Below are positions 2,240-37,916 of a stretch of 47,419 nt of DNA, piece after piece. The translations under genes and the position numbers were made by a program. Position 1 is the first letter of the stretch, and the number at the start of each line of letters is the position of its first letter. The notes below the pieces were generated by a model. It saw only the letters and a list, made by a program, of their open reading frames with translations, searched no databases and was not told the DNA's origin. Source of the DNA: Herpetosiphonaceae bacterium (GTDB taxonomy: Bacteria > Chloroflexota > Chloroflexia > Chloroflexales > Kallotenuaceae); the NCBI GenBank assembly GCA_036374795.1, contig DASUTC010000231.1, positions 1-47,419 on the forward strand, written 5' to 3'.

Positions 2240-2488
2240 TCGGTCATCGTCGATCGATCAGGGCAACGCCCATGACGACGCTGCCCTGATGCGACCGCAC
2301 CGGTTCCGCCATTCGCCCCCTCGCGCTACCCCCGGTGCGAGCGTGGGCGGCTGGCGGTGTCTCGCGTCCACGTGGGTCGGCTCCGCCGACTGAGTCCACC
2401 AGAAATCTCGATCGACCGTCCGTGCGTGTCGGTTCAATCGCACCATGTTGTCGCTGTCCCCTGCCATGTGTCACAAGGGAGTGTTCGG

Positions 2489-11400: not shown

Positions 11401-13102
11401 TTGGGGCCAGGGCCAAGTCAGCTACGGCTACGACGCCGCCGGGCGACTCACCAGCCTGACGCCGTGGAACGCCAGTCCAACCAGCTACACCTACCGCGCG
11501 ACGGGGCTGCTGAAGACGCAGACGCGGGCGAATGGCACGACGACCGCCTATGGCTATGACAGCGCCAGCCGCCTGACCAGCATCCGGCACGCGCGCGGGA
11601 CGACGCTGGAGCAGATCCAGTATGGGCTCGACGCCAACGGCAACCGGACGCAGCAGACCAACGGCGATGGCGTGACCACCTACACCTATGACGCACTCAA
11701 TCGCCTGGTGGAAGCCAGCTATCCGGCGATCGCTAGCGGTCCCGCTGCGAGCAGCGTGGCGTATGGCTACGATGCGCTCGGCAATCGGACGACCGTGAAC
11801 GGTGTCCCGACCTACAGCTACGACGCCAGCGGGCGGATCACCAATCCGGGCTTCAGCTACGACGCCAACGGCAACCTGCTCAGCGACGGCACGACCGCCT
11901 ACAGCTACGATGCTGCCAACCGGCTGATCCAAACGGTGCGCGGCGGCACGACGACCAGCTACGCCTACGACGGCTGGGGCAACCTCGTGCGCGAGACGGT
12001 CGACGGCGTCACCACGGACCTGATCGTGGATGAAGCCACGTCGTTGCCGACGATTCTGGGCGAAGTCGGCGCAGACGGCACAGTGCTGCGCTATACCTAT
12101 GGCCCCGATGGTTTCGCGGCGCAGCAGCGTGTGAGCGGCAGCGCGCAACCTGTCGCGTTTGCGCTGCTCGATGGCCTAGGCAGCGTGCGGCAGCTCACGG
12201 ATAGCACCGGTACCAGCGTGCGTACGAGCAGCTACGACGCCTTCGGCACCATCCGGCACCAGACCGGCTCCGCCACGACGCCGCTTGGCTTTACCGGCGA
12301 GCGCAGCGGCACGGCGGACGGCCTGCTCTATCTCCGCGCGCGGCACTACGCGCCGGAGCTGGGCCGGTTCCTCCAGCGGGATACGTTCGCGGGCTTCATG
12401 GACCGACCGCAGTCGCTCAACCGCTATACCTATACCGAGAATAATCCCGCGACGCTGATCGATCCGAGCGGGCATGCGGCGGCCAAACCCTGTCCGAGCA
12501 AGCCGAAAGACAATGACGGACCCAGGCCGGATGGTGGCATGGTGCCATCGTGTAATACCAAGGCTGCCCTCAGCACCGCCCTGGACTTTATCCCGGTGGT
12601 CGGCGATGTGAAGGGCGTTGCGGAAGCGTTTACCGGCTCTGATCTCGTGACGGGCGAAGACCTGGGCAACTGGCGCTGGGCAGGTTTAGTCGGAGCAAGC
12701 GAACTGCGATCCTTGCGTCACCTTGACAAGGTGACGGTCGGCGGGACGGGCAAAGCGTATGACGCCGCCAATGGGCAGGGCTTGTATGTGCTCCGGGACA
12801 GCGCGGGGAACGTGAAGTATGTCGGACGCGGTGATGCGCCGGCGCGAGGAGGGCAGCACGCGAAACATCCAACCAAGGGCCAGTACTGTCAGGAGATTCT
12901 GGCAAACAATAATCTGACGGAGGCGCAAGCCACAGGGCTGGAGCAGCGCCTGATCGATGAGTTTGGACTGTCAAAGAACGGCGGGCAGCTTGACAACAAA
13001 CGGAATGAAATCGCGAAGACCAATCCGAAGTATGATGAGTATATGCAAGCAGCGGAGGCGCTCTTCAACGAGATCTTGAAGCGGGCTGCATCGCGACCGT
13101 GA
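2489..13102 (+). CDS. Secreted NHL-Rhs polymorphic toxin with GIY-YIG-like nuclease tip
   Basis: The product is 3537 aa. The ATG at 2489 follows AAGGGAG (2475-2482) and opens a signal peptide (hydrophobic SLIHLFVCVALLL). Domain order, with approximate residues: PKD 42-130; second PKD-like 133-230; a GGGWF-containing domain 230-345; Thr/Pro linker 380-455; fibronectin III 455-545; carboxypeptidase-regulatory-like 593-665; 18 NHL repeats 1108-2111 (each ending like SLYIADTGNHRIRKV); YD/RHS repeats 2155-3330 closing with the Rhs core RARHYAPELGRFLQRD and IDPSGH; a pre-toxin TG-like segment (ALDFIPVVGDVKGVAEAFTG); and a C-terminal domain 3420-3537. That last domain has GLYVL...KYVGRG and a downstream LEQRLIDEFG, the pattern of GIY-YIG nucleases. 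In known Rhs systems the core forms a cocoon around the toxin tip, which is delivered to rival cells. The immunity gene follows at 13391. The NHL plus YD layout resembles teneurins. Nuclease activity is inferred from motifs only. Confidence 0.9.
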   Translation: MHHRRLPLLSSLIHLFVCVALLLQSSAWPAPTRAASLAVTQNRPPVADGGGPYTVAEGGTVQLDAAASTDPDGDSLTIAWDLDDDGTYETFGQAATFSAAPLDGPRTFPVYLRVCDSHSACDTDSVDLEITNRAPTIGAVSAPRDPLTVGSVVTATATFTDASVLDTHTSRWHWGDGTTSGGTTTETGGSGSVTATHRYPTPGVYTLNVDLFDDDCGTAQAPFQYVVVYDPSGGFVTGGGWFESPAGAYPADPTLRGRANIGFNAKYQALSTTPTGQTEFQFTAGNLAFRSTRYDWLVVVGGQAQYRGTGTIGGGTYSFLMTVVDGDYAGGSAADTFRIKIWDDARAFVVYDTQPGASERAAPTTPLGGGSITVRTLGTIPPPTPVPTPSATATPEPGCVPSATPTPAPTRTPVPTNTPTPTPTNTPTATPTDTATPTATSEPPTPTATPTDGPPSDLTPRGLWWSRKTTTTISLTWEPPTDAASVTGYDLYQGSTRLTTTTDTAYMVTGLTPDTEYTFTVRARDAAGNLSPPSASATVRTTALETLPPDPAVIAPPSDRTVSSDLASDTAFLYTGPNPIQVGVAPGTIDTRRVAVLRGRVTDDEGDPLPGVTVAVLDHPEYGHTRTRTDGMFDLAVNGGGIVTLTYTKEGYLPLQRQIPASWRDYEWLPEVTLLALDPVVTTVELDGSSEALLAVGSVVTDADGTRQSTLLFPSDVTATLQLADGSTEPLSTLHLRITEFTVGERGPSAMPGTLPPSSGYTYAAEFSVDEALAADATVAFSQPLVNYVENFVGFPVGGIVPTGYYDRTKAAWIASDNGRIIKLVGITAGLADLDITGDGVADDAAGLGVTIEERQQLGSRYAVGQELWRVLIPHFTPWDHNWPFGPPDGAIGPNGGPPKDRDTPEDNPCTRGGSIIACENQTLGEEIAVSGTPLHLRYDSDRAKGRTAAHTLEIPLSGASVPSSLREVRLGVSVAGQQFTQTLAPAANQTQTFTWDGRDAYGRRVQGSQTATVSVGFVYGAVYQEPAAFAQSFGRFGTGVAITGNRSLSEVTTWQQYSSTLEFLDAQGQGLGGWTIDAHHTYDPVGQTFFPGSGDRYTAQGIGHTIETTAGGGPGVPGDGVPATSAPLYSPEDVLWAADGSLYIADTANHRIRKIAPNSVISTVAGNGTRGFAGDGGPATNAQLYNPSGILQDADGGLFVADTGNDRIRKLDSTGQIRTVVGGGPGAPGDGGPSTSAPLSNPEDVQWAADGSLYIADRSNHRIRKVAPNGIISTIAGNGTQGFSGDGGPATNAQLYNPEGIWVGADGTLYIADDGNHRIRRVSPDGIITTVAGGGSTLGDGGPATSARLFDAYDVVLGPDGSLYIADAWDGRIRKVAPNGVITTVAGNGNYGFSGDGGPATSATLGFPIGLALGPDGSLYIADAGNNRIRKVSPSGIITTAAGTGAQGFSGDGGVATAAQLNFPTDVRVDTAGRLYITDSSNQRIRRVDASGVITSLVGGGSTLGDGGPATNARLANPSGIWVGVDGSLYIADASHHRIRRVDTNGMISTMAGTGSAGYVGIGDGYAATQARLNDPSAMAWGPDGSLYIADTGQHRIRKVSPDGVITTVAGNGTPGFGGDGGQGIYAMLGYPGGIGVGADGSLYIADTWNNRIRKVSSDGVITTVAGNGTRGFMGDGGPAINAQLDNPEGIRMGADGSVYIADTWNNRIRKIAPDGIITTVGGGGGWGSRGDGGPATAAELNRPNSVALTADGSLYIADTGNHRIRRVGSDGVITRVAGTNTAGYGRPGDNIPATQAKLYLPYDVAPSADGSLYIADERNALIRRVGPDGIITTVAGTEGTAGFSGDSGPAINAQLNGPESVALSPDGSLYIADTRNNRIRRIGPDGIITTVVGTATWGFSGDGGPAINAQLDWPTDLSVAADGSLYIADAGNNRIRKVSPNGIITTVAGSGDWGFSGDGGPALNAQFDWPQGIALAADGSLYIADAYNDRIRKVAPNGIITTVAGTDTDGFSGDGGPATAAELDYPHAVAVARDGSVYVSDYSNRRVRRIGPDGVIWTVAGTGAWGDGGDGFVATRAQLGGPAGLAVDAADHLYIADMDTNRVRRMQPPLSGFSGVDEVVLPSADLAVPSADGRELYLFTATGRHLRTRDALTGDILYRFDYDAAGRLITITDRVGLQTRIERDADGTPEAIVGPYGHRTSLTLDANGWLTRITNPANETTQVTYTADGLLTSLTDPRGGVHTFSYDAQGRLIRDANPVGGVTTLTRTGTAQSYTVTVKNALDDATRYTVEQLPNGDRRRTTTAPNGAVTTTLTKPDGTEITTAPDGTITTLVKSPDPRWGMQAPYISSLTITTADGTRFLTITANRTVTFSYPGDPLTLLTQTDTQTVNGRTTTRVYQATTRTLTTTTPTGERTSVVLNLQGQPIRTDTTNLATTLFDYDAQGRLIRTSEGTGVITRTQTLAYTAQGDLASHTDPLGATTSFTYDAVGRVTTQVLPTGQTLTYSYDASGNLLSSTDAQGVLTTSTYDAQNRRTSRTLDPDGRAVRTTYAYDTADHLMEIVEDAGSGRLNVTTRYEYTPIDDQGYAISEHIDPLGGITRTGYTVFGEPSSITDPLNRTTTIGYTAQGWVASVTTPGGLRTTTTYTSDGLPARVSDPRGSTTVMTYDAAGRLATLTTGATAIGSVPALNHTTTYAYDANSRVTSVTDPRGTVTRYAYDAFDRQTSVTDPLGTLTTYGYDLNDQLTGVIQAANVPSEALAVAYSYDAVGRLLTERVDPDGQNLRTEYRYSRAGSSDTWNLQQVIDPRGNATAYRYNTLGLRDQTTDALGSTWSLSYDNLGHVTAQTDPLGRNSTTSYDPLGRITAMTEDGRTQQWSYHGDSTLASFTDFLGRITRYSYDLDRRLTGVDYPTGTADPSYTYDPAGNVTRMTDGLGTTDYTYDAANRVISRARGGRTVGYTYTPNDQITAINYWGQGQVSYGYDAAGRLTSLTPWNASPTSYTYRATGLLKTQTRANGTTTAYGYDSASRLTSIRHARGTTLEQIQYGLDANGNRTQQTNGDGVTTYTYDALNRLVEASYPAIASGPAASSVAYGYDALGNRTTVNGVPTYSYDASGRITNPGFSYDANGNLLSDGTTAYSYDAANRLIQTVRGGTTTSYAYDGWGNLVRETVDGVTTDLIVDEATSLPTILGEVGADGTVLRYTYGPDGFAAQQRVSGSAQPVAFALLDGLGSVRQLTDSTGTSVRTSSYDAFGTIRHQTGSATTPLGFTGERSGTADGLLYLRARHYAPELGRFLQRDTFAGFMDRPQSLNRYTYTENNPATLIDPSGHAAAKPCPSKPKDNDGPRPDGGMVPSCNTKAALSTALDFIPVVGDVKGVAEAFTGSDLVTGEDLGNWRWAGLVGASELRSLRHLDKVTVGGTGKAYDAANGQGLYVLRDSAGNVKYVGRGDAPARGGQHAKHPTKGQYCQEILANNNLTEAQATGLEQRLIDEFGLSKNGGQLDNKRNEIAKTNPKYDEYMQAAEALFNEILKRAASRP
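5812..8820 (+). repeat. 18 tandem NHL-repeat coding units
   Basis: About 3.0 kb inside the Rhs gene is built of 18 in-frame units of roughly 165-175 bp. Each encodes a block ending in (S/T)LYIAD-x-x-N-x-RIRKV, followed by a turn rich in GDGGPAT. Several units share near-identical DNA such as GGCAGCCTGTATATCGCCGA, which suggests recent internal duplication. Eighteen units would fit three six-bladed beta-propellers. This is also a region where assemblies can miscount copies. Confidence 0.9.
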
Positions 13103-13390: not shown

Positions 13391-13822
13391 ATGACGACCA
13401 AACACCAGGTGAAGGAAGGCGATATTATCGCCATCCCGTTCGACGACCAGCGCGTCGCTGCCGCGCTTATTCTGCATGTCTCGAAGGTGTTCCGCAACGC
13501 GATCCTGATTGGCATCTACGAGCAGGTCTTTCCGTCGATCGACGCGATCGATCTGCAGACCCTCGGCGGCCCCTTCATTGGGGTGCCGAATTATACCGGG
13601 AAGCAAATGGTGCGCGATGGCGACTGGCCGGTGATTGGCAACAGCGCCGCCTTGTTCGCGGCAGCCACCATTCCTGAATTGCGGGTCGTCGATACGGTGT
13701 ATTACAAAGACACCCCCGTCCGCCTGCTTTCTGCGGAGGAGGAAGCACGCTATCCGGTGCATACGGTAGCGGGAAAGGGCTATGTCGAACAAACGTTGCA
13801 GCAGCACTTTGGGAAGCGTTGA
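13391..13822 (+). CDS. Imm26-family immunity protein
   Basis: The product is 143 aa with a strong AAGGAGG site just ahead of the ATG. The N-terminus (VKEGDIIAIPFDD, then VAAALILHVSK) matches the opening pattern of Immunity protein 26. In such loci these proteins are found next to Rhs or related nuclease toxins. The gene directly follows the toxin tip on the same strand, so the likely role is to bind and neutralise the GIY-YIG-like domain in the cytoplasm. A palindrome precedes it and an intrinsic terminator follows, so it may also be expressed independently. The antisense frame covering this gene encodes nothing recognisable. The family assignment rests on N-terminal motif resemblance and context. 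Confidence 0.75.
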   Translation: MTTKHQVKEGDIIAIPFDDQRVAAALILHVSKVFRNAILIGIYEQVFPSIDAIDLQTLGGPFIGVPNYTGKQMVRDGDWPVIGNSAALFAAATIPELRVVDTVYYKDTPVRLLSAEEEARYPVHTVAGKGYVEQTLQQHFGKR

Positions 13823-14658: not shown

Positions 14659-15661
14659 CTAGGCTGCCTCGTGCTGATCCGATCGGGCGGGCTGCGGTGC
14701 CGGAAACGGAATGATCGTCGGCTCCGGTTCGGCGCCGAGGCCATGTTGGCGCAGCACGGCCTCGGCGCGGAGGATCGTTCGGCGCATCCCGTGTCCATTG
14801 AGTCCATACAAACGGAGGTTGATTTCTCCCATGAGGCAGCAGGTTTTGTCTATGTCTTGCCCGAAGTACCGGACGAGTCCCAACTGGTTCATCCAGTCGT
14901 CAAAACAACTTGCGCTGGCGAGCAGCATCGCGCCGCTTCCAACACAGGGGTCATAGACGGTGACGGGTTCGTAGTGCTCGATCGCATGGGGGGATCACCC
15001 GTGCGATGAACCACGCCTGCGCCACCTCGCCTTCGAGGAGACTGCCCGCCAGGAGCGCCGCCTGCGCTGCGGGCGATTGTTCAATGGCGGCCTGAAGGTG
15101 GCGATGGACCTCCGCCCGACCATCGCCGATGAGCAGTCGCGCCATGACGGTCGTGACCGACATGGGAGTAAAATACTGGCCCAGCCCCGTGTGCGGCCAG
15201 CCCCACGCCATGTAGATGAGGCCCACAATGTCCATGTACCCGACCGTCGCGCTCAACCGCAGCTCGGCAAACGCCTGGAGGAAATAGTCGAGATACTGCT
15301 CGTTCGCGCCCTCGCGGAACGGATAGGTCGTGCGCAGCCGCGCCAACAGCGCAGCGACGTGCGGCGGATCTGCGGCAAGGTCGCCCGTCTCGGCGAGCGC
15401 CTGCTCGTGCTTCGGCTCCATGTCCAGCAGGGCATGCACCAGCTCCAGCCAGTCGGTAAACACATCGTCTGGACGGCGACCGACGACGGTGCAGCGTTCG
15501 AGCAGCTTGATGATCTGCTTGACCGTCCGCGCCTCAAACGCCTGGCCGTCATCAACGGTAGGCGTGGATCGCGCCGGCGGGATGATCTGCCCCTCCACAT
15601 CGGAGGGTGCGCGGTTGCTCGCTGTTGCTGTTCGCTTGGGCAGAGTACGTTTAGACGCCAT
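14659..15661 (-). pseudogene. N6-adenine methyltransferase N-terminal half, frameshifted
   Basis: Translation from the ATG at 15661 (GGGAG about 11 nt upstream) gives an HsdM-like N-terminal helical region, then GLGQYFTPMSV, the motif X region of gamma-class N6-adenine methyltransferases. At a run of six C (coding strand, 14993-14988) the frame breaks. The next frame continues smoothly with EHYEPVTVYDPCVGSGAMLL, the SAM-binding motif I, and NLRLYGLNG, then ends at 14659. The catalytic NPPF motif (IV) is absent from either frame. One base too many in the homopolymer explains the break: a true mutation, a sequencing slip, or programmed +1 frameshifting. If joined, the product would be about 330 aa. 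The gene at 19069 carries the complementary catalytic half. Confidence 0.75.
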
Positions 15662-15895: not shown

Positions 15896-16357
15896 TCACC
15901 CACCAGCCGATGTGCGCAGCCAGCGCGTCAGCTGCTGGCGCTGCGTGCCCAGGCCGCCCTGGGCGATGACCAGGCCGGGGAGATCCAGGAGGGCGTCCGC
16001 GCGAATCAGCGTTGAGCGGTACTGGTAGCCCATGACCACGAGTGTTGACGTGATACCCGCGAGCATCGGAACCACGATCTGCGTCCACTGCGCGCGGAGC
16101 GTGGATTCGATCTCCAGCACCCGTTGAGCCGTCATCCGGCGATCGTAATCGGGGATCGGATCGGTTGGCCGGAGGAACCCAAATTCGGCGCTCAGAATTA
16201 GCACCTGCGGCAGCGGAACGCCCTCGCGTTCCGCCTTGTTCAGAATCTGGTAGGCTCCCCCCGTGTAGCGCGCACGTGCCGGCAGGAGGCCAGGATCAGG
16301 GCGCTTCGATTGGGAGCAGGCGATCAGCAGTAATCGCTGGGACGCTGGCTGGAACAT
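15896..16357 (-). CDS. DUF6884-family protein
   Basis: The product is 153 aa from the ATG at 16357 (MFQPASQRLLLIACSQSKR). Recognisable blocks are LLLIACSQSKR near the start, ARARYTGGAYQ, and LILSAEFGFLRP followed by PDYDRRM. This is the pattern of DUF6884, which is distantly similar to the YaaA fold and common on phages and plasmids. The biochemical role is not established. A longer reading frame runs upstream but crosses the tRNA gene, so it is rejected. The start is 20 nt from the tRNA 3' end, so tRNA and this gene may be co-transcribed. Confidence 0.75.
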   Translation of the reverse strand: MFQPASQRLLLIACSQSKRPDPGLLPARARYTGGAYQILNKAEREGVPLPQVLILSAEFGFLRPTDPIPDYDRRMTAQRVLEIESTLRAQWTQIVVPMLAGITSTLVVMGYQYRSTLIRADALLDLPGLVIAQGGLGTQRQQLTRWLRTSAGG

Positions 16358-16377: not shown

Positions 16378-16455
16378 TGGTGCGGGAGACAAAGACTCGA
16401 ACGTTGTACCCTCCGGTTTTGAAGACCGGCGCGCTACCAATTGCGCCACTCCCGC
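16378..16455 (-). tRNA. tRNA with UCA (opal) anticodon, tRNA-Trp-like
   Basis: The 78-nt gene folds as follows: acceptor stem GCGGGAG/CTCCCGC (7 perfect pairs), D stem GCGC/GCGC with AATTGGTA loop, anticodon stem CCGGT/ACCGG with loop CTTCAAA, T loop TTCGAGT, discriminator A and encoded CCA. The anticodon is UCA, which reads UGA. The D loop and anticodon arm match bacterial tRNA-Trp closely (CAATTGGTAG, CCGGTCT-CAAAACCGG) except that CCA became UCA. The variable region is short, unlike tRNA-Sec. Oddities: the T stem is CAACG/CTTTG with one C-T mismatch and an extra A-T pair, giving a 13-layer acceptor/T stack, and the discriminator is A rather than the usual G of tRNA-Trp. It may be a UGA decoder or suppressor carried by the mobile element. 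Confidence 0.85.
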
Positions 16456-16492: not shown

Positions 16493-18238
16493 TTAGGCCG
16501 CCCGCCGCTGCTCGCCGGTCAGCCAGAGCGTGGTGTCCGGCAGCGTCCAGGTGATGATCGTGATGTGTGGCTCGTCGCTCGCCGACTCGCGGGCCTCGCT
16601 CTGATCCAGATCGGCGGCGGTGCAGCCATGCGCGGCGATGGCGTGCTCGCGCAGCGCCGCCAGCTCGTCGTGGCCGGCCTGCTGGGCCTCCGGCAGTGCC
16701 GCCGCCGACGCGCCGCAAAGCTGGCACTGGAGGTTTGACACCCCCGGCTGCGGCGCGGGTGTCATCTGCCGCAGCTCGGTGGCGAAGCGGCAGTCCGTCG
16801 CCAGCTTGTCACCGGCGGGGCGAATATCGAGCAGGACCGGGCGGTTGAGCTGCCCGTTCATGGTCATACGCTCCGTGCGCACCGTCACGACCATAGCACG
16901 CTCCCCAGCGTCCCAGCGGCGCTGGAGCTCGTCGCGCTGCGCGTCGGTCATGCCCGAACCCACCTCGCCGATCGACACGAGCGTGCCGCCCTCGTCGTAC
17001 AGGCCGCATGCGATCGCGCCGACGCGGCCCGTGTTGCGTCCCTTGCCCGGCTGGATGCCCATGACCACGACATCGAGCGTGTTGAAGCCGAACTTGACCT
17101 TGGTCCAGGCCCGCGTGCGGGCGTCCTGGTAGGTGGCGGTCGCGTCGCGGAAGACGAGGCCCTCCCAGCCCGCAGCCATGCCGCGCGCAAACAGCGCGCG
17201 CTTGCCCGCCTCGTCGGCGGCGACCTCGACCAGCAGGATCGTGTCTTGCTGCCCCAGCGCGCCGATCACGGCCTTGAGCAGCGTGAGGCGCACATCCTGA
17301 CGGGTGGCGAGCTTGCTGGTCATCGCCGGGCAGGCCAGCAGGTCGAAGGCGACAAAGCACTGGCACGTGGCATCCATACCGACGTAGAGCGCTTCCTGCC
17401 CATCATCCGTTAAGCCAACTAGCTCGCCATCCAGTGATGTCTCAGCGGGCAGCTTTGCCGCGATCGCCGCGATGTGTGCCGGGCATGGAACTTCGCCCCC
17501 GCTCCGGTTGGTCATGATCACCTCGCCACCCGCCAGCACATGGATTTGTGCGCGCCGCCCTTCCATCTTGCGTGTCGCAATCCAACCTGGATTGCTCAGG
17601 AACGGCTCGGCCATCGCCCTGATGCGGGCCACATCGTCGGCGATCGGCAATTCCTTTGCCGCTTCGCAGAGCATCACTGCCACCGGATAGGGCGTGGCGG
17701 GTGCAGCACCTGGGGTCGGAGCGGCAACCGGCGCGCTCACCGGCGCAGCGGGGTGTTCCGGCGGGCTGGGGTGCGCTGTGGCCTGGGCGGTCGACGCAGC
17801 CTGGGGTGCCGGAGCGGGTGCTGGCTGGGCGGGCGCGGCGGGCGCGGGCGTGGCCGGAGTCGTCTGGGCTGCCTGGGCGGCAGCCTGCCGACGAGCAAAC
17901 GGCAGCAGTGTCAGCGGACGACCGACCTGCCAGAGCTGATCGTGGAGCGGCAGATCGCCGTTCGCATCCAGGCTCTTGCTCCAGGCTGCCGCGCCGTAGG
18001 CGCTCATCGTCCCCGCCAGCATAGTCACATAGGAGCGCGGGCTGCCTTTTCGTTTCTTGTCGGCCTGTTTGAGCAGCGCCTTGAAAGCGTCCTCGCGGCT
18101 GGAGCCACTGTAGAGGGTTCCCTGGGCGATAGTGCCCTGCGTGTAGGCGTTCACGACGAATGTGCCGCTTCGGTCCTCAACGAGAATCTCGTAGGTGGCT
18201 CCAGTGTGGGCCATGCCCCCAAAATATCCAACCAGCAT
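16493..18238 (-). CDS. ATP-dependent DNA ligase with N- and C-terminal accessory domains
   Basis: The product is 581 aa. I chose the ATG at 18238 because AGGAG lies 8 nt upstream. Residues 14-75 resemble a degenerate WGR-like nucleic-acid domain (YEILVEDRSGTFVV). An Ala/Pro-rich linker spans 117-185. The nucleotidyltransferase core shows motif I ATRKMEG (Lys224 nucleophile), motif III LDGELV (269-274) and FDLL (298-301), motif IV EGLVFR (359-364) and motif V KVKFG (380-384). An OB-fold-like segment follows. The C-terminus has CQLC (505-508) and H532/H537, a possible zinc site. It should seal nicks in duplex DNA using ATP. There is no LigD polymerase or nuclease domain and no Ku gene in view, so it is likely a mobile-element repair or replication ligase. 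A consensus promoter lies upstream. Confidence 0.85.
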   Translation of the reverse strand: MLVGYFGGMAHTGATYEILVEDRSGTFVVNAYTQGTIAQGTLYSGSSREDAFKALLKQADKKRKGSPRSYVTMLAGTMSAYGAAAWSKSLDANGDLPLHDQLWQVGRPLTLLPFARRQAAAQAAQTTPATPAPAAPAQPAPAPAPQAASTAQATAHPSPPEHPAAPVSAPVAAPTPGAAPATPYPVAVMLCEAAKELPIADDVARIRAMAEPFLSNPGWIATRKMEGRRAQIHVLAGGEVIMTNRSGGEVPCPAHIAAIAAKLPAETSLDGELVGLTDDGQEALYVGMDATCQCFVAFDLLACPAMTSKLATRQDVRLTLLKAVIGALGQQDTILLVEVAADEAGKRALFARGMAAGWEGLVFRDATATYQDARTRAWTKVKFGFNTLDVVVMGIQPGKGRNTGRVGAIACGLYDEGGTLVSIGEVGSGMTDAQRDELQRRWDAGERAMVVTVRTERMTMNGQLNRPVLLDIRPAGDKLATDCRFATELRQMTPAPQPGVSNLQCQLCGASAAALPEAQQAGHDELAALREHAIAAHGCTAADLDQSEARESASDEPHITIITWTLPDTTLWLTGEQRRAA

Positions 18239-18602
18239 CTCTGCGCTCCTTGAACGATGGCGAATGGGTCGCGTGCGCGGGTCCGTTCTTTCCTTGCTAT
18301 AATTGTAGCATAATAGGTTACAGTTGTCAAAATACCAAAACGTTTTGCTATGATACGGGTTTTTTTTGCTGGTCCCTGCGTCGGAGGTGGGGCAACGAGG
18401 TGGTGCGCCCAAGGTCTATTGGGCGTACCTGGGGGAATGGGGAACGGTGGATGCGGAGGTCACGGACGCCCGCGACCTCGAAGACCCAGGCGACGACCTA
18501 GACCGTGCTGCTGATCAGGATTGGCGTGGGGCCGCCGGCCATCGCTTAGGCAGCCGGTGGCCCCACCATCGCTGCGTGCGCGACCGTTAGCGCCGCATTG
18601 AG
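18239..18602. other. Intergenic region with ligase promoter
   Basis: This 364-bp gap lies between the ligase start and the end of the next gene. The 90 bp nearest the ligase are AT-rich and hold its promoter (18302-18330). The rest (18365-18600) is GC-rich and I see no gene or repeat in it. Confidence 0.6.
18302..18330 (-). promoter_or_regulatory. Sigma-70 promoter of the DNA ligase gene
   Basis: On the minus strand, TTGACA (18330-18325), a 17-nt spacer and TACAAT (18307-18302) form a near-perfect sigma-70 promoter 64 nt before the ATG. The spacer begins ACTGTAA, as in the promoter at 24120 and, with one change, the one at 23082, suggesting a shared operator. Confidence 0.8.
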
Positions 18603-19068: not shown

Positions 19069-19869
19069 TCACCAATCTTGATTCAACAACATCTGCAATT
19101 CGTCGAGCGTCTGCATGATCGTGCGTTGGTTCTCCAATAACCGCTGAATAATGACCCGCGGATCGTCGTACTGGATCTCAGGTGTGCGTTGCGGCTGGTA
19201 GCGACGCGCATCGAGTTCGTAGGCTGAACCGAGCGCTTCGACGGGCGTTTCCCAGGTTTCCATGGTTTCCAGATCAATGCTCACTGGTTCGGGTGATCGC
19301 CGTGAACGGTGCGCACGCTGCGGCGCCACTGGATAGGCGTAGAACCGGATCTGCGTTGTTCGACCTTCCGCCTGCACCATCAAGATGCTGGTACTCACGC
19401 CAGCAAATGGGTAAAACACGTCGCTGGGCAGCGAAATAATCGTCTGCAGCATGTGGTCTTCAACCAGTGTTTTGCGGAGTTTCACCAGCACCTTGGTCGA
19501 ACCAAACAGCATGCCGTCGGGGAGAATCACGGCGATCCGGCCACCGCGGCGCACCTGCTTTAAGATCGCAGCCGTGAACAGGATCTCGGTTTTGGTTCCC
19601 CAGGCTTTCAAGTCGGGACGCACATCGGGCAGATAGCACGCTCCGCCAAATGGTGGGTTGCTCACGATAAAGTCATGCTGCGTTTCATCAGCGTCGGCGA
19701 GCGTATCGCGCTGGGCGATCACCTGGCGCGGTACACGGGAGCGCCCAGGGTGCTGGGCGGCGGATCGGGGCTCGGCCGATGGAATCCAGCCGGCCGAGCG
19801 TACGAGCAGGGTACTGCTGCCTAGATCGGCCATGTGGTCGGGTCGTCGTGGTGCGGTGATGGTCGTCAT
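19069..19869 (-). CDS. N6-adenine methyltransferase C-terminal half (HsdM-like, NPPF motif)
   Basis: The product is about 266 aa from the ATG at 19869; no strong ribosome-binding site marks the start. From residue 54 it matches gamma-class methylases of HsdM type: RDTLADADE, then NPPF (motif IV, N71), LLF-like FTAAILKQVRRGGRIAVILP, DGMLFGS, and VFYPFAGVSTSILM, ending in a helical tail. The first 50 residues are not recognisable, and motif I (SAM binding) is missing, so alone it should not bind cofactor normally. The gene at 14659-15661 holds exactly the missing half. It overlaps no neighbour but begins 54 nt after the RNA ligase gene ends, so the genes are probably co-transcribed. It is either a truncated remnant or one partner of a split enzyme. 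Confidence 0.7.
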   Translation of the reverse strand: MTTITAPRRPDHMADLGSSTLLVRSAGWIPSAEPRSAAQHPGRSRVPRQVIAQRDTLADADETQHDFIVSNPPFGGACYLPDVRPDLKAWGTKTEILFTAAILKQVRRGGRIAVILPDGMLFGSTKVLVKLRKTLVEDHMLQTIISLPSDVFYPFAGVSTSILMVQAEGRTTQIRFYAYPVAPQRAHRSRRSPEPVSIDLETMETWETPVEALGSAYELDARRYQPQRTPEIQYDDPRVIIQRLLENQRTIMQTLDELQMLLNQDW

Positions 19870-19922
19870 GTCGCTGCGCGCATCGTCGCGGGCATGGGCA
19901 GGTGCCATGCCTCGCGCGTCGT

Positions 19923-20975
19923 TCAGGAGATCTGGCGCGACGAGCCGCGCCGATCCTCGTTGGTCTGCAGGCCATTGGGGACCACCGGCTGCCGGACCCA
20001 ATTGTGGACGGTTTGCACATGCCCCGCTCGCACATATTTGGCCACCGACTGGCGGAATGCGCTATACGGGAAGGCATCGGCCAGGCGCACGACGTAGCCT
20101 TCGCACGGGTCGCCATCGAGGACGGGCTGGTACATGCCCTGAATCAGCTGCTCGTCCCAGATGCCGCGATACAGCACGGGGACCAGGCTCAATTCCAGTA
20201 AGGCGGTCCATTCTTCGGTTTCCGCCCACGAGAGGCAGTGGTTGCGATCGCTCCACATGCTGAACACCTGGAAGTAGCTGCCGAGATGGCTGTAGGCGAT
20301 CGAGTGGCGCGCATACAGGTTTTCGCCGCACACGCGATAGCCAGGTGGGATGTCGTAGGCAATCTGCGCGTGCAGCTGTTTGACCCAGCTTTGTGAGGGA
20401 TGCGCCGCCGACGCCACCGAGCGCCCGTGGATGCCATCCCGGTAGAGCGTGGTATTCGCGCCGTCCATCTTCGCCGTGACGACGACCTCGCATCCGACGA
20501 AGGCACGCACATCGGCCAAGGCCAGGTCGTCCTCGGCGCGACCGGGACTCCACGGCAGATGCGGCGTGCGTGGATACTTGACCCGATCGCTGAACAGATG
20601 GTGGACGCCGCCAGCGCGCAAGATCCGCTGCACCGACTCGTCGTCAAAGAGTTCGCCGCGCAAGCGGGTCCCGTTCGCTACTTCGTAGTTGCCCCATTTG
20701 TCGATGCGATCCGCGTCATAAAACTGCGGTGGTAACAGAATCTGGCGAATGCCGGCAGCCTGGCGGATGTCGTCACAGCTCAGCGTCGTTTGTTCGGCGG
20801 CGATATGATGATCGGCGCAGAGCGATGCACCGTTCTGGAGATAATAGCCGCCATCCGGCCACAGCCGCCGCTCGACGATATGGTGGGCGTCCTGAGCGGG
20901 CGCGCCACAGATGACACAGCGGTGGTGGTCGCGCTCAAAGACAGCATCGCGGAATTGGGTGCGTGTTAACAGCAT
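19923..20975 (-). CDS. HNH nuclease - RNA ligase fusion protein
   Basis: The product is 350 aa from the ATG at 20975 (GAGG about 10 nt upstream). Residues 10-60 form an HNH domain: CVIC (20-23), DAHHIV with H31/H32, N48, C53 and H56/H57. Residues 95-330 look like an Rnl-type RNA ligase: motif I AKMDG (Lys169 nucleophile), motif III CGENLYARHS (E218), motif IV EGYVVRL (292-298) and motif V KYVR (313-316). Known RNA ligases of this family join RNA ends after nucleolytic damage such as tRNA cleavage. Fusing a nuclease to a ligase could allow cut-and-rejoin or repair of a specific break; this is inference. It sits between a methyltransferase piece and a small protein gene on the same strand. Both domains look intact. 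Confidence 0.8.
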   Translation of the reverse strand: MLLTRTQFRDAVFERDHHRCVICGAPAQDAHHIVERRLWPDGGYYLQNGASLCADHHIAAEQTTLSCDDIRQAAGIRQILLPPQFYDADRIDKWGNYEVANGTRLRGELFDDESVQRILRAGGVHHLFSDRVKYPRTPHLPWSPGRAEDDLALADVRAFVGCEVVVTAKMDGANTTLYRDGIHGRSVASAAHPSQSWVKQLHAQIAYDIPPGYRVCGENLYARHSIAYSHLGSYFQVFSMWSDRNHCLSWAETEEWTALLELSLVPVLYRGIWDEQLIQGMYQPVLDGDPCEGYVVRLADAFPYSAFRQSVAKYVRAGHVQTVHNWVRQPVVPNGLQTNEDRRGSSRQIS

Positions 20976-21037
20976 CGACCGCCTCACGATCGGGTTGCAG
21001 GCCAAAAGAGTAGCGTACCAGGCAGATGGATGAACCG

Positions 21038-21463
21038 CTAGACCTCCCGGATGATCGTTGGCGTTTCGTCCGTGAGACCGGGAATCACCAGCCAGAACCA
21101 CTGTCGGCATTTGAAGAGCCGCAGTTCCAGCAGGTCGTCAGGAAAGGTCTGGCCGCCATGGCCCTGCCAGTGGCCCAGATGCGTAAGCTGCTGCTTGGCG
21201 CACGGCGGACAGAGATCGCCGGGCTGGCCTTTGTCGATGGTGTAGCCGTCAGCGGCGGGATCGAGCGGCTGGGGAGCCGGGATGCGTCCGTGATCGGCAT
21301 CTGGGCAGGGCCTCCCGCCGAGCTCCGCAGCGACGATCCCAGAGCAGATCAGCGTGTCGGGGTAGATCGTGCCGTCGGGACTGAGAAACAGCGCCCGGGG
21401 GGCCTGCATCAGATGATTGGGCTGGGTATCGTCAGGAAGCTGCCTGTGGGGGAACGTCGTCAT
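21038..21463 (-). CDS. Hypothetical protein with CPPC motif
   Basis: The product is 141 aa from the ATG at 21463, with AAAGGA about 12-17 nt upstream. The middle contains GDLCPPCAKQQLTHLGHWQGH, which could bind a metal through two Cys and two His, and the end has CRQWFWLVIPG. There is no signal peptide and no family I recognise. It lies 62 nt before the HNH-RNA ligase start and after the sigma-factor gene on the same strand, so it may belong to the same transcript. Confidence 0.6.
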   Translation of the reverse strand: MTTFPHRQLPDDTQPNHLMQAPRALFLSPDGTIYPDTLICSGIVAAELGGRPCPDADHGRIPAPQPLDPAADGYTIDKGQPGDLCPPCAKQQLTHLGHWQGHGGQTFPDDLLELRLFKCRQWFWLVIPGLTDETPTIIREV

Positions 21464-21558: not shown

Positions 21559-22962
21559 TTACTCGAGGTAATCCCGCAACCTGGCTCCGAACGCTGGATG
21601 GCGCAGCTTGCGCAGGGCTTTGGCTTCGATCTGGCGGATACGCTCGCGAGTGAGGCCATCGACGAGTGTGCCCACCTCTTCGAGCGTGCGGCTCTTGCCG
21701 TCGTCGAGGCCATACCGCAGCCGAATTACGCGGCGTTCCCGATCGGGAAGCCGATCCAGGATCGTGTTGAGTTGCTCCCGCAGCTGTGCGTGGGCAACCA
21801 TCTCGAAGGTTGCGGTACATGTGTGATCGGCAACCAGCTCGCCGAGCCGGATCTCGTCGCCGTCCTTCCCCTCAAACACCGGTGCCTCCAGCGATTCCGG
21901 CAGGGCCGTTCGATTCAGATACGTCATGTACTTCTCAAGCTCCCATCCGAGGGCATCCGCCATTTCTTGGTGGCTCGGCGTACGGTTCAGGGTGTCCGCG
22001 AGCGTCGATCGAGTGCGGTTCACGAGCACGATCGTCTCGGTCATGTGGACGGGCAGGCGAATCGTGCGGGACTGGTCTGCAATCGCGCGCGTCACCGCCT
22101 GGCGAATCCACCACGTCGCGTAGGTCGAGAACTTGTGCCCCTTGGTGTAATCGAACTTGCCGGTCGCGCGCATCAGCCCGATATTCCCTTCTTGGATGAG
22201 ATCGAGGAAGGTTAACCCGCGGCCCCGATAGTTCTTCGCAATGCTGACGACCAGGCGCAGATTCGCCTGGATCATCTGCGCGCGGGCGTCCGCTCCCGTC
22301 TGCACCAACTGCTTGAGGGTGCGTTTGGTCTCGCCGTCCAGGTTCGCATCCGGATCATCGAGCTGGTCCTGCGCGAACATTCCCGCCTCCATGGCCTGGG
22401 CGAGGTCGACTTCTTGCTGCGCCGTCAGTAATGGGGTCTGCCCAATTTCACGCAGGTAGCGCCGCACCGGGTCGTCATCCACATCGACATCCACATCGGG
22501 ATCGGGTTCGTCCGCTTCCACCTCCAAAAGGTCTGAAGCGGTTGGCTCGTCCGCTGGCCCGGTTGCGCTACGCTCGATCGGTTCACCAGTCACCATGGTG
22601 GACCTGCATGATGGTAGGTCACGAACGGCTGGTGCGATCTGTGGGTTGCCTGGCTGTGCAATGTCTCCCGTCTCAGTGGCCGGAACCTCGGTACGCACAC
22701 CGCCCGTACTCATTCCACGCGATGGTGGTGCAGCGACCTGAGGTACCTCGCCACCCGTCAGCTGGTGCGCCTTGATGCGATGCAGCTTGATCGGACGACC
22801 GTCTGGCTTCTGAACAGAACAGCCGGGGTAGCCACAGGGGACAGGGTCGCGATCATCCGTTCGCGTGTCCGGCATCACGCGCGTGCCCGTACCACCATCC
22901 GTATCAATCGCCTGAGCGGCGGCGAGGCTGGGCCGGGGGGGAATAATCGTTATGAGCGCCAT
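21559..22962 (-). CDS. RNA polymerase sigma-70 factor with N-terminal C2H2-type zinc finger
   Basis: The product is 467 aa. The ATG at 22962 has AGGAG 8 nt upstream, better than in-frame starts further up. All conserved primary-type regions are present: 1.2 ([18 protein letters not shown]), 2 ([37 protein letters not shown]), 3 and 4 ([36 protein letters not shown]). Region 1.1 is replaced by an extension with Cys43-x4-Cys48-x12-His61-x4-His66, an exact C2H2 zinc-finger spacing, which may add a DNA contact or a regulator-binding site. It should direct RNA polymerase to promoters, plausibly including the AT-rich TTGACA/TACAAT promoters in this island. Its own upstream promoter matches that type. 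Confidence 0.9.
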
Positions 22963-23081
22963 ACCATCTCCTTGCGACGAAGCCACGTCGTCTCTGCCGC
23001 CATGCGCGCTGCTGCCGGTGCGGCGACCGATTGTTGAGTCAGTCGTGTGCTCGCGCTGGACGCGCATCTGTACCAGATACA

Positions 23082-23110
23082 AATGTAACATCATGGATTA
23101 TAGTTATCAA
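23082..23110 (-). promoter_or_regulatory. Promoter of the sigma-factor gene
   Basis: On the minus strand, TTGATA (23110-23105), a 17-nt spacer starting ACTATAA, and TACATT (23087-23082) lie about 120 nt before the sigma-factor ATG. The arrangement copies the ligase promoter and the one at 24120 with few changes. Confidence 0.65.
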
Positions 23111-24972: not shown

Positions 24973-25779
24973 ATGCCTGATCGTCCACCACCTGAACCAG
25001 CGGACATCGTGTGCGAGCCGGGCGGTGCGAGCTATGATCCCGCTGCGTCGATCCTGGATGACGCACGAGCGGCGGCGCGACGCCCGTGGCCGTACGATAT
25101 GCTGCCGAAAGACTATTTGATCGTCAGCGGACGGTACCAACGATTCCGATCGTCCACCGCGCTGCCTGCGGAACCACGTGAGCGACCTCAACCGACGGTG
25201 CTGTCCGAGCAGGTATCGCTGCATGCCGTGTGCGACCGCGACCAACCGAGCGATCCGCATGGCTCCGCTTCAGACCCAGGACCGACCACCACGCCCACCA
25301 CCCTCCCGCCGCGGAAGCGTCCACCAACCGATCCCAGGCTGCGCAAACGCTCTTTCGCGCTGCGCACCAAGGCAAACACGGTGCGCGCTCAGCATCCAAG
25401 GCAGGCCCGGCTGCTGGACGCGCAGGCGGAGGCGCTGCTGGAGATCATTCCCGACGATGCCCCAGAGCGGGCGCGCAGCACCACACGTCCGCCTGCTCCA
25501 ACCGCTGAGACGGTCGTCGGTCGCGACATCGATCTGATCTGGCTGGCCGGGAAGCGGCGACAGATCGAACGGCTCGCGCACGGGACCGTCGAGGAGCAGG
25601 AGCGGGCGCGCGGGCTGCTGGCGCTGCTCACGCCCGTGTTTCAGGCCGTCGGGGAGCCGCTGCCGATCGTTCCACCGCCAGCCCGGGTCATCGTGCTGGC
25701 CGACCATCACGCGCGAAGCGCGGAGACCCAGGATGTCTATGCCGCCGATTCCACGTCGGAGGCGCAGTGTGCCGCGTAG
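24973..25779 (+). CDS. Hypothetical proline-rich protein
   Basis: The product is 268 aa from the ATG at 24973, 45 nt after the previous stop. The first two thirds are rich in Pro, Arg and Thr and look disordered (TTTPTTLPPRKRPPTDPRLR). The C-terminal third has a helical stretch (DIDLIWLAGKRRQIERLAHG, then QERARGLLALLTPVFQAVG). I recognise no family. Probably expressed from the promoter at 24120. Function unknown. Confidence 0.5.
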   Translation: MPDRPPPEPADIVCEPGGASYDPAASILDDARAAARRPWPYDMLPKDYLIVSGRYQRFRSSTALPAEPRERPQPTVLSEQVSLHAVCDRDQPSDPHGSASDPGPTTTPTTLPPRKRPPTDPRLRKRSFALRTKANTVRAQHPRQARLLDAQAEALLEIIPDDAPERARSTTRPPAPTAETVVGRDIDLIWLAGKRRQIERLAHGTVEEQERARGLLALLTPVFQAVGEPLPIVPPPARVIVLADHHARSAETQDVYAADSTSEAQCAA

Positions 25780-25820
25780 ATGGGCGCGGTCCGTGCCTGA
25801 CCGGCGGCGCGGACCCCGTG

Positions 25821-25849
25821 TTGACAATCGCAAGCCAGACTGGTATATA
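25821..25849 (+). promoter_or_regulatory. Promoter of the CAP-domain gene
   Basis: TTGACA (25821-25826), 17-nt spacer and TATATA (25844-25849) lie 25 nt before the ATG at 25874. The spacer does not carry the ACTGTAA block seen in the other island promoters. Confidence 0.75.
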
Positions 25850-25873
25850 ACCATCCACAACCAAGGGACGACC

Positions 25874-27064
25874 ATGCATGTATTCCACCACACCCTACGG
25901 GCCGTCCGTACCGCCGTTCGTATCGGGCTGCTCGCGTGCGGGACCGCAGCGGTCGCAGCCGGAGCCGCAGCTGTGCCGAACCAGACACCCGCCGTGGCCG
26001 TCGTCTACGTCCCGCTGATCGTGGCGGGGACGGGCGTGAACGTGGCGACGCCGACGCCGACCCTGCCCGCGCTTCCGACCCCAACGCCGGTGGATCGCGC
26101 CGCCTATCAGGCCGAGGTGATCCGCCTGATCACCACCTATCGCATGGACAAGGGCTGCCCGGCGGCGATCGAGCAGCCGATGCTCATGACCGGCACCCAC
26201 ACCTGGAATCAGACGATCGTCGAGACGACCGTCATCGCGCATTCGCCGATGGGCTACTACGGGCAGTTCGGCTACGACAGCACGAACCAGCGCCAGGGGC
26301 CGGTCGAGGTGATCCAGGTCGGCGGGGCCAGCCCGGCGGATGCGGTGCAGGCATGGATCGACCATGCGCCGCACGAGCGGCTGCTGCGCTGGTGCCCGCT
26401 GACCGGCGGGACCTATGAGATCGGCGTGTCGTATCTCGAACCTGGATATTGGGTAGGTGCCATCGGCTGGTGGGACGCGCCGACGGCGACTCCCACGGCG
26501 TCGCCGACCGCGACGGCGACGCCGACCCCAACCGCCGCACCCGAAACGCCAACGCCGACGGCAACGCCAACCGCACCCGCGACGCTCACCACCGCACCAC
26601 CCACGCCGCCTCCCCCCATACTCACCCCGACGCCGATGCCGTCGGCTCCCCCCACGCCGACGGCCACGCCCGTCGATGCCGCTGCGTACCAGGCGGAGCT
26701 GATCCGGCTGATCAACACCTATCGCGCGGAGCAGGGCTGCCCGGTGGCCCGTGAGGAACCGATGCTGATGGCGGGCACCCACGCCTGGAATCAGACAATG
26801 GTCGAGACCGGCGTGCTGGCGCACGCGCCGATGGGCTATGACCAGCAGTTTGGCTACGAGGGCACGAACAACCGGCACGGGCCGGTTGAGCTGATCCGCT
26901 TCGATCCGGGCACGCCAGCCGAGGCGCTGCGCGCCTGGACCGCCGTGTCCGCGGACGAGCGGCTGCTGCGGTGGTGCCCCTTCGCGGGTGGGACCGACGA
27001 GATCGGGGTGTCGTATCTCGAACCTGGGTATTGGGTCGCCGCCATCGGCTGGTGGGATCAGTGA
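25874..27064 (+). CDS. Secreted protein with two CAP/SCP-like domains
   Basis: The product is 396 aa. The ATG at 25874 has AAGGGA upstream and opens a signal peptide (VRIGLLACGTAAVAAGAAAV). Two copies of a domain of about 130 residues follow at roughly 72-195 and 270-396, joined by a Thr/Pro linker (TPTPTAAPETPTPT). Each starts AAYQAE(V/L)IRLI(T/N)TYR and ends ISYLEPGYWV-like GVSYLEPGYWV(G/A)AIGWWD. This is the plan of CAP (SCP/PR-1) extracellular domains. The role of bacterial CAP proteins is mostly unknown. The copies are very similar, so a recent internal duplication is likely. The next gene starts 11 nt after the stop, so they form an operon. Confidence 0.8.
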   Translation: MHVFHHTLRAVRTAVRIGLLACGTAAVAAGAAAVPNQTPAVAVVYVPLIVAGTGVNVATPTPTLPALPTPTPVDRAAYQAEVIRLITTYRMDKGCPAAIEQPMLMTGTHTWNQTIVETTVIAHSPMGYYGQFGYDSTNQRQGPVEVIQVGGASPADAVQAWIDHAPHERLLRWCPLTGGTYEIGVSYLEPGYWVGAIGWWDAPTATPTASPTATATPTPTAAPETPTPTATPTAPATLTTAPPTPPPPILTPTPMPSAPPTPTATPVDAAAYQAELIRLINTYRAEQGCPVAREEPMLMAGTHAWNQTMVETGVLAHAPMGYDQQFGYEGTNNRHGPVELIRFDPGTPAEALRAWTAVSADERLLRWCPFAGGTDEIGVSYLEPGYWVAAIGWWDQ

Positions 27065-27074
27065 GGAGCTTTGC

Positions 27075-28022
27075 ATGACCGAATCAGGAGGCCACCTCCG
27101 CGTGCGCGTACGCCTGCCGGAGCTGATCGCCGCGGCGCAGGCGCAGTGGGGCCGGGTGCGGACGCGGCGGCCCGTGACGCCGATGCAGGTGCGCACAGGC
27201 GTGCAGGCGCATCAGGCGACGATCGAGGCGTACCTGGACGACAGCGCCGCCAAGGTTCGCTTCGAGATGCTGGCCCGCCTGTGCTGGTTTTTCGGCTGTC
27301 CGATCGACTCGCTGCTCGGCGTTGAGCAGGACGGACGCGCGCCGGCCCCCGTCGTGATCGGCCGCGCGACGATGCCGGAGCAGTTCCCGCCTGCCGGCAG
27401 CGGCGCGATTCGCGTGCTGAACTTCATGCCCGGCGAGGTCGCGCTGCACGTGCCGGGCGTGCGCGCGGCGACCGATTGGCATCGGGAGGCCGTGCTGCAG
27501 CTGGCCGCCGGTGGGCAGACCGGGGTCGGGCGGCAGACGCTTACGACGCTCCTGACGGTGCTGGGCCTGGCGCGCGTGAGCCAGTTGGTGGAGGTCCAGT
27601 GCGATCTCGATGCCGCCGACCCATCGGCGACCAAGCTCGCCGATGCGATTCGGATCATTGAGCCGCGCCCGACATGGCTGGCGCACTGGGAGGAGACCGT
27701 GCAGCAGTGGCGGGGCCTGGCGGAGCAGACGCCCGCTCCCGGTGCCGTGACGCCGGTGGACCTGGCCGCCCTGCGGTATCTCGCGCGGCAGTGGCAGCCG
27801 ACCATGCTGGGGCGGCTCGATCTCCTGGCGGCGGGGCTCGGTATCCGCCGGAGCTTCCTGCGCGCGATACTGGAGCAGCAGGTCCACCCGGAGATCAGCC
27901 CCAACGATCTCCCGCCCCCGGTCCAGCGGTTCCTGGACGACGTTGCCCCGATCGACTGGCATGCCCAGGCGGCGGCGGACGCGGAGCAGGCGTATCAAGA
28001 ACACCGCTCGCGCACCACCTGA
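27075..28022 (+). CDS. XRE-like helix-turn-helix regulator
   Basis: The product is 315 aa from the ATG at 27075 with GAGGAG 8 nt upstream. Residues 5-75 form a Cro/C1-type helix-turn-helix (VTPMQVRTGVQAHQATIEAY, then MLARLCWFFGCPIDSLLG). The remaining 240 residues are helical and unrecognised; there is no NTPase or peptidase motif. It is co-transcribed with the CAP gene and converges on drmC, the stops being only 3 nt apart, with no terminator visible between them. It could be a regulator of the island or of DISARM, which is inference. Confidence 0.7.
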   Translation: MTESGGHLRVRVRLPELIAAAQAQWGRVRTRRPVTPMQVRTGVQAHQATIEAYLDDSAAKVRFEMLARLCWFFGCPIDSLLGVEQDGRAPAPVVIGRATMPEQFPPAGSGAIRVLNFMPGEVALHVPGVRAATDWHREAVLQLAAGGQTGVGRQTLTTLLTVLGLARVSQLVEVQCDLDAADPSATKLADAIRIIEPRPTWLAHWEETVQQWRGLAEQTPAPGAVTPVDLAALRYLARQWQPTMLGRLDLLAAGLGIRRSFLRAILEQQVHPEISPNDLPPPVQRFLDDVAPIDWHAQAAADAEQAYQEHRSRTT

Positions 28023-28025
28023 GCC

Positions 28026-28835
28026 TCAGTCACGCGCGAGCGGTTCGAGCACCTGGGATTGCACCAGGTGCCGCCAGTGCGCGGCCACCTGTTGCGGCAC
28101 GGGGCCGCCGCGCACCAGCACCCCCAGCTCCATGTTGAGATTCAGCGCGTAGTGTGTGAGGTTGGCGCTCGACACGTAGGCCAGCGTGCCATCCGCGACG
28201 GCGCACTTGGCGTGGAGCGCGCCGGTCTTGCCGCTCGCGTCCTGCGGTCGCCGGTCGCGCGGCCAGCGCAGCACCGTCGCGCGGTCGACCACCTGCGCGC
28301 CCAGCGCGGCCAGCCCGTCGTAGGCGATCTTCCCGGCGCTCGCCTGGGGCGACTCGACGATCAGCCAGAGGCGCGCGCCCCGGTTTGCCGCCCGCGCCAG
28401 CGCCAGCCCGATCTCCGGCACGTCGTAGACCGCGAAGGCCACGATGATCAGCTCGTGCCGCGCCGCGTCGATCACCTGCTGGAGCGCCTGGGCCGTGCGG
28501 CGGAGCGGGATCGGGCTGGCCGGGCCGGTCCAGACCAGCTCGACCTGCTGCTGGGCCTGCACCTGGGCGGCGGTCGCCGCGGCGGACTCCAGCGCCAGCG
28601 CCAGGCTCTCCGGCGTGACCGCGGGTGCCGCCTGCTGCCAGGTCGCGATCAGCCCGGCCAGGGTGTTCCGGGCGTGCGGCGTGCCGGCGGCCTGCTGCGC
28701 GCGGGCCAGCAGCGTGCTCCACGCGCCCGGCGGGACCGTCCGCAGCGCGGCGGCGACCTGGCCGATCACCGGCGCGGGCAGCTCGAGCGCCAGGGTCGTC
28801 AGCGCGGCGAGCAGGGCCGGCGGCGGCGCGCTCAT
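28026..28835 (-). CDS. drmC: DISARM phospholipase D-like protein DrmC
   Basis: The product is 269 aa. It has one HKD motif, LHAKCAVAD (about residue 205), followed by SSANLTHYALNLNMELGVLV, the pattern of PLD-family nucleases/phospholipases, and an upstream IIVAFAVYDVPEIGLAL strand-helix segment. In DISARM systems DrmC is a PLD-like component whose contribution to defence can be dispensable. Its ATG overlaps the drmB stop by 4 nt (ATGA), typical translational coupling. Last gene of the drmA-B-C operon; it ends 3 nt from the convergent regulator gene. Confidence 0.9.
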   Translation of the reverse strand: MSAPPPALLAALTTLALELPAPVIGQVAAALRTVPPGAWSTLLARAQQAAGTPHARNTLAGLIATWQQAAPAVTPESLALALESAAATAAQVQAQQQVELVWTGPASPIPLRRTAQALQQVIDAARHELIIVAFAVYDVPEIGLALARAANRGARLWLIVESPQASAGKIAYDGLAALGAQVVDRATVLRWPRDRRPQDASGKTGALHAKCAVADGTLAYVSSANLTHYALNLNMELGVLVRGGPVPQQVAAHWRHLVQSQVLEPLARD

Positions 28836-30688: not shown

Positions 30689-30700
30689 CTCGCGTCCTCT

Positions 30701-37666: not shown

Positions 37667-37788
37667 GATGCACCTCCTTAAATTAGGTGGACGCAGGTGG
37701 ACGTGCAAGGAACAACATCACGGTGTGGGAATGAGGCGGATCGTCGTTGTTTGCTGAGATGCGCTGGGGGCTGCGGCATCAGATGCAG

Positions 37789-37887
37789 AATGTCTACTAA
37801 ATGCTATTAGCAGACATTCTTGACCTTTTCCTCGCGTCATAATGTCTGCTAATGCTGCTTCGTACCCGTCTTTGTAATGTCTGCTAA
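37789..37887. mobile_element. TnpI recombination site (IRS) with core and two accessory sites
   Basis: The core is AATGTCTACTAA (37789-37800), a 6-bp spacer ATGCTA and the inverted arm TTAGCAGACATT (37807-37818). Two direct copies of AATGTCTGCTAA follow at 37841-37852 and 37876-37887, spaced 22 and 23 nt. This is the IR1-IR2-DR1-DR2 plan of the Tn4430 site, where TnpI resolves cointegrates without host factors. It lies between the divergent tnpA and tnpI and probably also regulates both. Confidence 0.85.
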
Positions 37888-37916
37888 TATACCTGCACAA
37901 TACATGGAGTGCAGCC

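Follow-up and report, generated by a model that had tools for sequence, protein, structure and literature searches.

Several described systems resemble in part the UCA-anticodon tRNA gene reported here, which lies in a 47,419-base stretch of DNA from a Herpetosiphonaceae bacterium of the phylum Chloroflexota (the window, an entire contig). The tRNA-Trp(UCA) of Mycoplasma and other organisms that read UGA as tryptophan likewise carries UCA in a Trp-type arm. Unlike the UCA tRNA, five such genes (L065, L067, L069, L076 and L079) have a five-pair T stem, and those with a complete end have G73; they come mostly from groups known to read UGA as tryptophan, whereas UGA is a stop in this genome. The suppressor tRNAs carried by recoded phages, some of them jumbo phages, are also stop-reading tRNAs on mobile elements, and in both cases a phage-type RNA ligase, a DNA ligase and a sigma factor lie alongside. 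However, the present element is plasmid-like, recoded genes were not found in it, and the genome yielded no terminase of family PF03237. Three viral UCA tRNAs (L040, L084 and L092) share the identical anticodon loop and a short variable region, but have a normal T arm, other surroundings and, except for L084 with A73, another discriminator (G73 in L040, U73 in L092).

The tRNA-Gly(UCA) of Gracilibacteria/SR1 combines UCA with a Gly-type acceptor stem, as here; in this case, however, the anticodon arm is Trp-type, the discriminator is A73 and UGA is not reassigned. Among tRNA-Sec, selC* tRNA-Cys and allo-tRNA, the likeness lies in the UCA anticodon (tRNA-Sec and some selC*) and possibly in the length of the acceptor/T domain (13 pairs in tRNA-Sec), whereas the UCA tRNA is 7/6 rather than 8/5, 8/4 or 9/3 and has a short variable region. 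Finally, the megaplasmid tRNA arrays of Variovorax RA8 and Pseudomonas silesiensis pPL1 unite tRNA genes with the same HNH-RNA ligase family on one accessory replicon, but comprise dozens of sense tRNAs, in contrast to the one UCA tRNA found here.

The tRNA and its neighbours are as follows (window coordinates):

14659..15661, minus strand: N-6 methylase, motif I half (phrog_5696), frameshifted near 14985, in a run of six C, where the sister copy is in frame (profile match, alignment)
15896..16357, minus strand: DUF6884/YaaA-like protein, starting 20 nt past the tRNA after AAAGGA, UGA stop; sister copy 81% identical and also ending in UGA (profile match, alignment)
16378..16455, minus strand: tRNA gene with UCA anticodon and A73, 78 nt including CCA; seven-pair acceptor stem and six-position T stem with one C-U mismatch (ARAGORN, Rfam, direct reading)
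16493..18238, minus strand: ATP-dependent DNA ligase (PF01068, phrog_114), ATG at 18238 after AAGGAG, TAA stop; sister orthologue 84.8% identical (profile match)
18302..18330, minus strand: sigma-70-type promoter match TTGACA-17-TACAAT, 11/12, with TG before the second hexamer (extended -10), ahead of the ligase-tRNA-DUF6884 string (sequence match)
19069..20001, minus strand: N-6 methylase, catalytic NPPF half (PF02384 positions 109-247), UGA stop here and in the sister copy; the ORF as called probably starts too far upstream (profile match)
19923..21110, minus strand: HNH-RNA ligase fusion (phrog_24030) of the type known from jumbo phages and megaplasmids, not found in the sister element (profile match)
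21559..23094, minus strand: RpoD-like sigma factor that has an additional region at its N terminus; sister protein 66% identical
25733..27064, plus strand: conserved gene, function unassigned, common to the sister element, with third-position differences in this frame (alignment)
26988..28022, plus strand: gene with a weak HTH_26 match, common to the sister element (profile match, alignment)

The UCA tRNA gene is genuine and structurally intact. It is the only tRNA that ARAGORN calls in the window (anticodon tca), and its label 'SeC' follows from the anticodon alone. The cloverleaf exceeds the cut-off of the general Rfam tRNA model RF00005 (60.6 bits, E 9e-11; cut-off 29 bits), with a score inside the 45.6-76.1 bits spanned by the genome's 51 tRNA matches. 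Its RNA, GCGGGAGUGGCGCAAUUGGUAGCGCGCCGGUCUUCAAAACCGGAGGGUACAACGUUCGAGUCUUUGUCUCCCGCACCA, pairs at 7/7 positions in the acceptor stem, 4/4 in the D stem and 5/5 in the anticodon stem; of the six T-stem positions, one is a C-U mismatch. The anticodon loop is CTTCAAA, the variable region is 5-6 nt, the discriminator is A73, and CCA is encoded in the gene. The 78-mer is present in a single copy in the genome, and its free minimum-energy fold (-29.0 kcal/mol) is not the cloverleaf (-26.7 kcal/mol). The initial annotation, which gave no strand, was thus accurate on the position, the encoded CCA, the UCA within its loop, the short variable region, and the unusual discriminator and mismatched six-pair T stem. 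The ARAGORN check that it had proposed agrees, as does the general Rfam tRNA model.

On the minus strand, the promoter match is followed by the ligase, 37 nt, the tRNA, 20 nt, the DUF6884 gene and a methylase half, while the second methylase half, the HNH-RNA ligase and the sigma factor lie upstream of the promoter match. Profile matches confirm the sigma factor and ligases of the earlier description. The contig was considered as a circle, which was rejected because its ends do not overlap. The HNH-RNA ligase family is known from jumbo phages and megaplasmids, some carrying tRNA arrays, and was found in 1 of 400 sampled genomes of the phylum, namely this one. A resident jumbo phage as owner of the tRNA was rejected, given the missing PF03237 terminase, and a search of viral contigs for relatives of the DNA ligase and the DUF6884 protein found none. 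The element carrying the UCA tRNA is regarded as accessory and plasmid-like.

Other features of the window include the methylase halves, which are complementary (PF02384 positions 43-107 at 14659-15661; 109-247 at 19069-20001) and stand in permuted order with the ligase, tRNA and DUF6884 gene between them. DISARM genes drmC, drmB and drmA (PADLOC profiles) lie at 28026-34246 (minus strand). A teneurin/RHS-type protein of 3581 aa (2357-13102, plus strand) is followed by an Imm26-like immunity protein (13391-13822, plus strand), likely forming a polymorphic toxin-immunity pair. A Tn3-family transposase and a tyrosine integrase occupy 34700-38870, where the high-GC part ends and G+C falls sharply from about 73% to 55%.

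UGA is still a stop codon in both cell and element, and no sign of recoding was found. The host encodes RF2 (prfB, 491.8 bits; cut-off 370 bits), and its trpS and prfB matches contain no inner stop. UGA terminates the genes for DUF6884, the methylase C half, the RNA ligase, DrmB and DrmC. In DUF6884 and the methylase C half it does so in both sister elements, with no sustained coding conservation beyond it. When TGA was read as tryptophan in the main open frames of 12.7-28.9 kb, no conserved domain in Pfam or PHROGs spanned an in-frame UGA. The suggestion of recoded element genes, for which a scan for UGA as tryptophan had been advised, is therefore not supported, and neither is suppression of host stop codons: RF2 is present, UGA stops are in use, and the sister tRNA is broken while its neighbours are kept. 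One apparent exception was rejected: the single TGA in the reading of the sister sigma factor precedes the point where the gene really starts. The methylase break is a frameshift in the C6 run, where the sister is in frame.

The decoding half of the tRNA is of tryptophan type. Its D and anticodon arms match phage, actinobacterial and plasmid tRNA-Trp, and the nearest among the tRNAs compared is the tRNA-Trp of SPN3US (78% overall). The anticodon arm, with C35 and A36, is CCGGTCTTCAAAACCGG, a single base off CCGGTCTCCAAAACCGG. The Trp-like body proposed earlier stands for these two arms but not for the acceptor stem, which is identical at 14/14 bases to that of host tRNA-Gly(GCC) and tRNA-Gly(UCC). 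The discriminator G73 of bacterial tRNA-Trp is also absent, with A73 instead. The host has two tRNA-Trp(CCA) genes and one strong match to TrpRS.

The most likely reading, with a probability of roughly 0.45, is that this is a genuine accessory UGA/UGG decoder of a plasmid-like element, charged poorly with tryptophan, giving weak read-through with the code unchanged and not essential to the element. The tRNA would be transcribed from the ligase promoter, the usual tRNA-processing enzymes would cut it out of the ligase-DUF6884 transcript, and U34 would let it decode both UGG and UGA. Bacterial TrpRS reads C35 and A36 and need not tell C34 from U34 (PMC12135181). Since both bases are present and the whole anticodon arm is Trp-like, tryptophan is the amino acid that the host TrpRS would most likely attach. 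A73 and an acceptor stem foreign to tRNA-Trp would make charging poor; G73A cuts bacterial TrpRS charging about 9-fold (PMC12135181), which makes the doubt about charging in the initial annotation reasonable. The expected outcome would be weak UGA read-through, and such a weak opal reader may be tolerable where UGA is a stop, whereas a strong one would be costly. The Gly-type acceptor stem, the T-stem mismatch, the extra pair that would lengthen the acceptor/T domain to 13 positions, a minimum-energy fold other than the cloverleaf, and the broken sister copy argue against this reading.

Further evidence comes from C347, another contig of this assembly (206.5 kb), which may or may not share a cell with the window (estimated contamination of the assembly, 4.9%). 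This sister element carries many of the window's genes, and those flanking the tRNA keep the same order. Identities are 81% for DUF6884, 85% for the ligase, 88% for the methylase C half and 78% for the sigma factor. The two plus-strand genes are also present, and the RHS gene lies elsewhere on C347; neither the HNH-RNA ligase nor DISARM was found there. Differences in the gene block fall mostly at third codon positions, indicating that the genes are under selection in both elements. C347 also encodes a protein that has a DnaA N-terminal domain, as would suit an accessory replicon.

Behind its ligase gene lies a tRNA-like remnant whose acceptor stem cannot form and which has no Rfam match at E up to 5. 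Its similarity to the UCA tRNA exceeds that of all 5000 shuffles, but other tRNAs score equally or higher, and several host tRNAs resemble it at least as well. Because of this, and because its anticodon is ambiguous (TCA or CAA), the remnant was not taken as evidence for an ancestral UCA. The sister element has retained the flanking genes although the tRNA between them is broken, so a tRNA in this position is dispensable and its loss is tolerated. Two further observations concern C347. A sister tRNA at C347:50044-50116 (L116 44-116, minus strand) has an intact cloverleaf (58.8 bits) and a 6-nt anticodon loop, UCGCAG, and a sub-threshold match to a CRISPR direct repeat (L116 4186-4222, plus strand) adjoins the sister sigma factor.

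Nearly as likely as a weak accessory reader is a relic: a leftover tRNA of the element that is no longer under selection, accumulates mutations and has no present role in decoding. The broken copy at the same spot among conserved neighbours, the second odd tRNA of the sister with its 6-nt loop, the frameshifted methylase of the window, and the T-stem mismatch and A73 all fit such decay. However, the stems of the UCA tRNA are intact save one T-stem pair, CCA is present, 60.6 bits is within the normal range, and its two T-arm insertions lie opposite each other, an arrangement rarely produced by random decay. As UGA is still a stop and the sister tRNA has decayed, the gene probably reflects no new genetic code but encodes a helper tRNA that is weak or dying.

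A glycine-charged UGA decoder, as in Gracilibacteria/SR1, is unlikely. The acceptor stem shared with two host tRNA-Gly genes includes all three tRNA-Gly acceptor pairs (G1-C72, C2-G71 and G3-C70); pairs 1-72, 2-71 and 3-70, together with C35, are Gly identity elements, and the GlyRS of T. thermophilus accepts A73 (PMC3990555). Against this, C36 is also a Gly identity element and the UCA tRNA has A36, host tRNA-Gly are all U73 where it has A73, and its anticodon arm is Trp-like.

From the T loop to the 3' end the UCA tRNA measures 20, compared with 19 in nearly all others, and among about 160 tRNAs compared 20 recurs only in two tRNA-Sec and one tRNA-Ser. This one base more fits a 13-position acceptor/T domain (7+6 positions, one mismatched), and the long variable arm is absent. 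Such a domain is typical of tRNA-Sec, there as 8/5 (PMC7609411). The union of a Trp decoding half, a Gly acceptor stem and a Sec-like domain might serve the element by reading UGA with deliberately low strength, or by acting as bait for defences that cut tRNAs, beside an HNH-RNA ligase that could repair tRNAs; this is unlikely.

A true suppressor serving regulated UGA read-through of element genes, such as DUF6884 joined to the same-frame methylase half, is improbable. DUF6884 and the methylase N half do share one frame with only UGA between them, and the UGA and four codons are similar in the sister. A read-through fusion was nonetheless rejected as the spacer is not conserved; moreover, the sister has no intact tRNA, and a shared frame free of TAA and TAG is estimated to arise by chance about 1/9 of the time in this composition.

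A selenocysteine or selC*-type tRNA, to which the UCA anticodon and a putative 13-position domain, found in the sample in tRNA-Sec, would point, is very improbable: the tRNA-Sec model RF01852 gives 37.0 bits against a cut-off of 47, the long variable arm for SerRS is absent, and a normal tRNA-Sec lies on another contig (67.7 bits). The gene was rejected as the cell's tRNA-Sec on these grounds, as the initial annotation had held. That sequencing misread the anticodon of what is really an ordinary tRNA-Trp is equally improbable, since A73, the acceptor stem and the T stem also differ from tRNA-Trp and the contig's long ORFs are intact, even if the C6-run frameshift in the nearby methylase could be such an error.

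Stop-reading tRNAs on mobile elements are likely raw material for genetic code change. Here, a host in which UGA terminates and which has a normal tRNA-Sec holds an intact gene and a broken remnant at one spot in two sister elements of one assembly, so that one could test directly how a natural opal tRNA is tolerated, charged and lost.

A search pattern combining the D-arm end, the Trp-type UCA anticodon arm and the T-loop start was absent from all 399 other sampled genomes of the phylum. A looser pattern occurred at 17 places in 84,980 species genomes, including Mycoplasmataceae and related bacteria, true tRNA-Sec and chance matches. In viral contigs it occurred at 12 places, and several of these are tRNAs whose variable arm is long. 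Among the tRNAs encountered, a tRNA-Trp(UCA) at L067 2370-2443 (plus strand) lies on a contig labelled Paceibacterota on which reading through TGA raises open-frame coverage from 51% to 91%, a candidate for UGA recoding or a mis-binned contig. Six 97-nt UCA tRNAs with a long variable arm and G73 (L075, L082, L083, L087, L089 and L090, from viral contigs and one gut MAG) are neither tRNA-Trp nor clearly classical tRNA-Sec. UCA tRNAs with a short variable region were also seen in Cyclobacterium jeungdonense (L071 6857-6930, minus strand) and, with A73, on a viral contig with 11 tRNAs (L084 5798-5873, minus strand).
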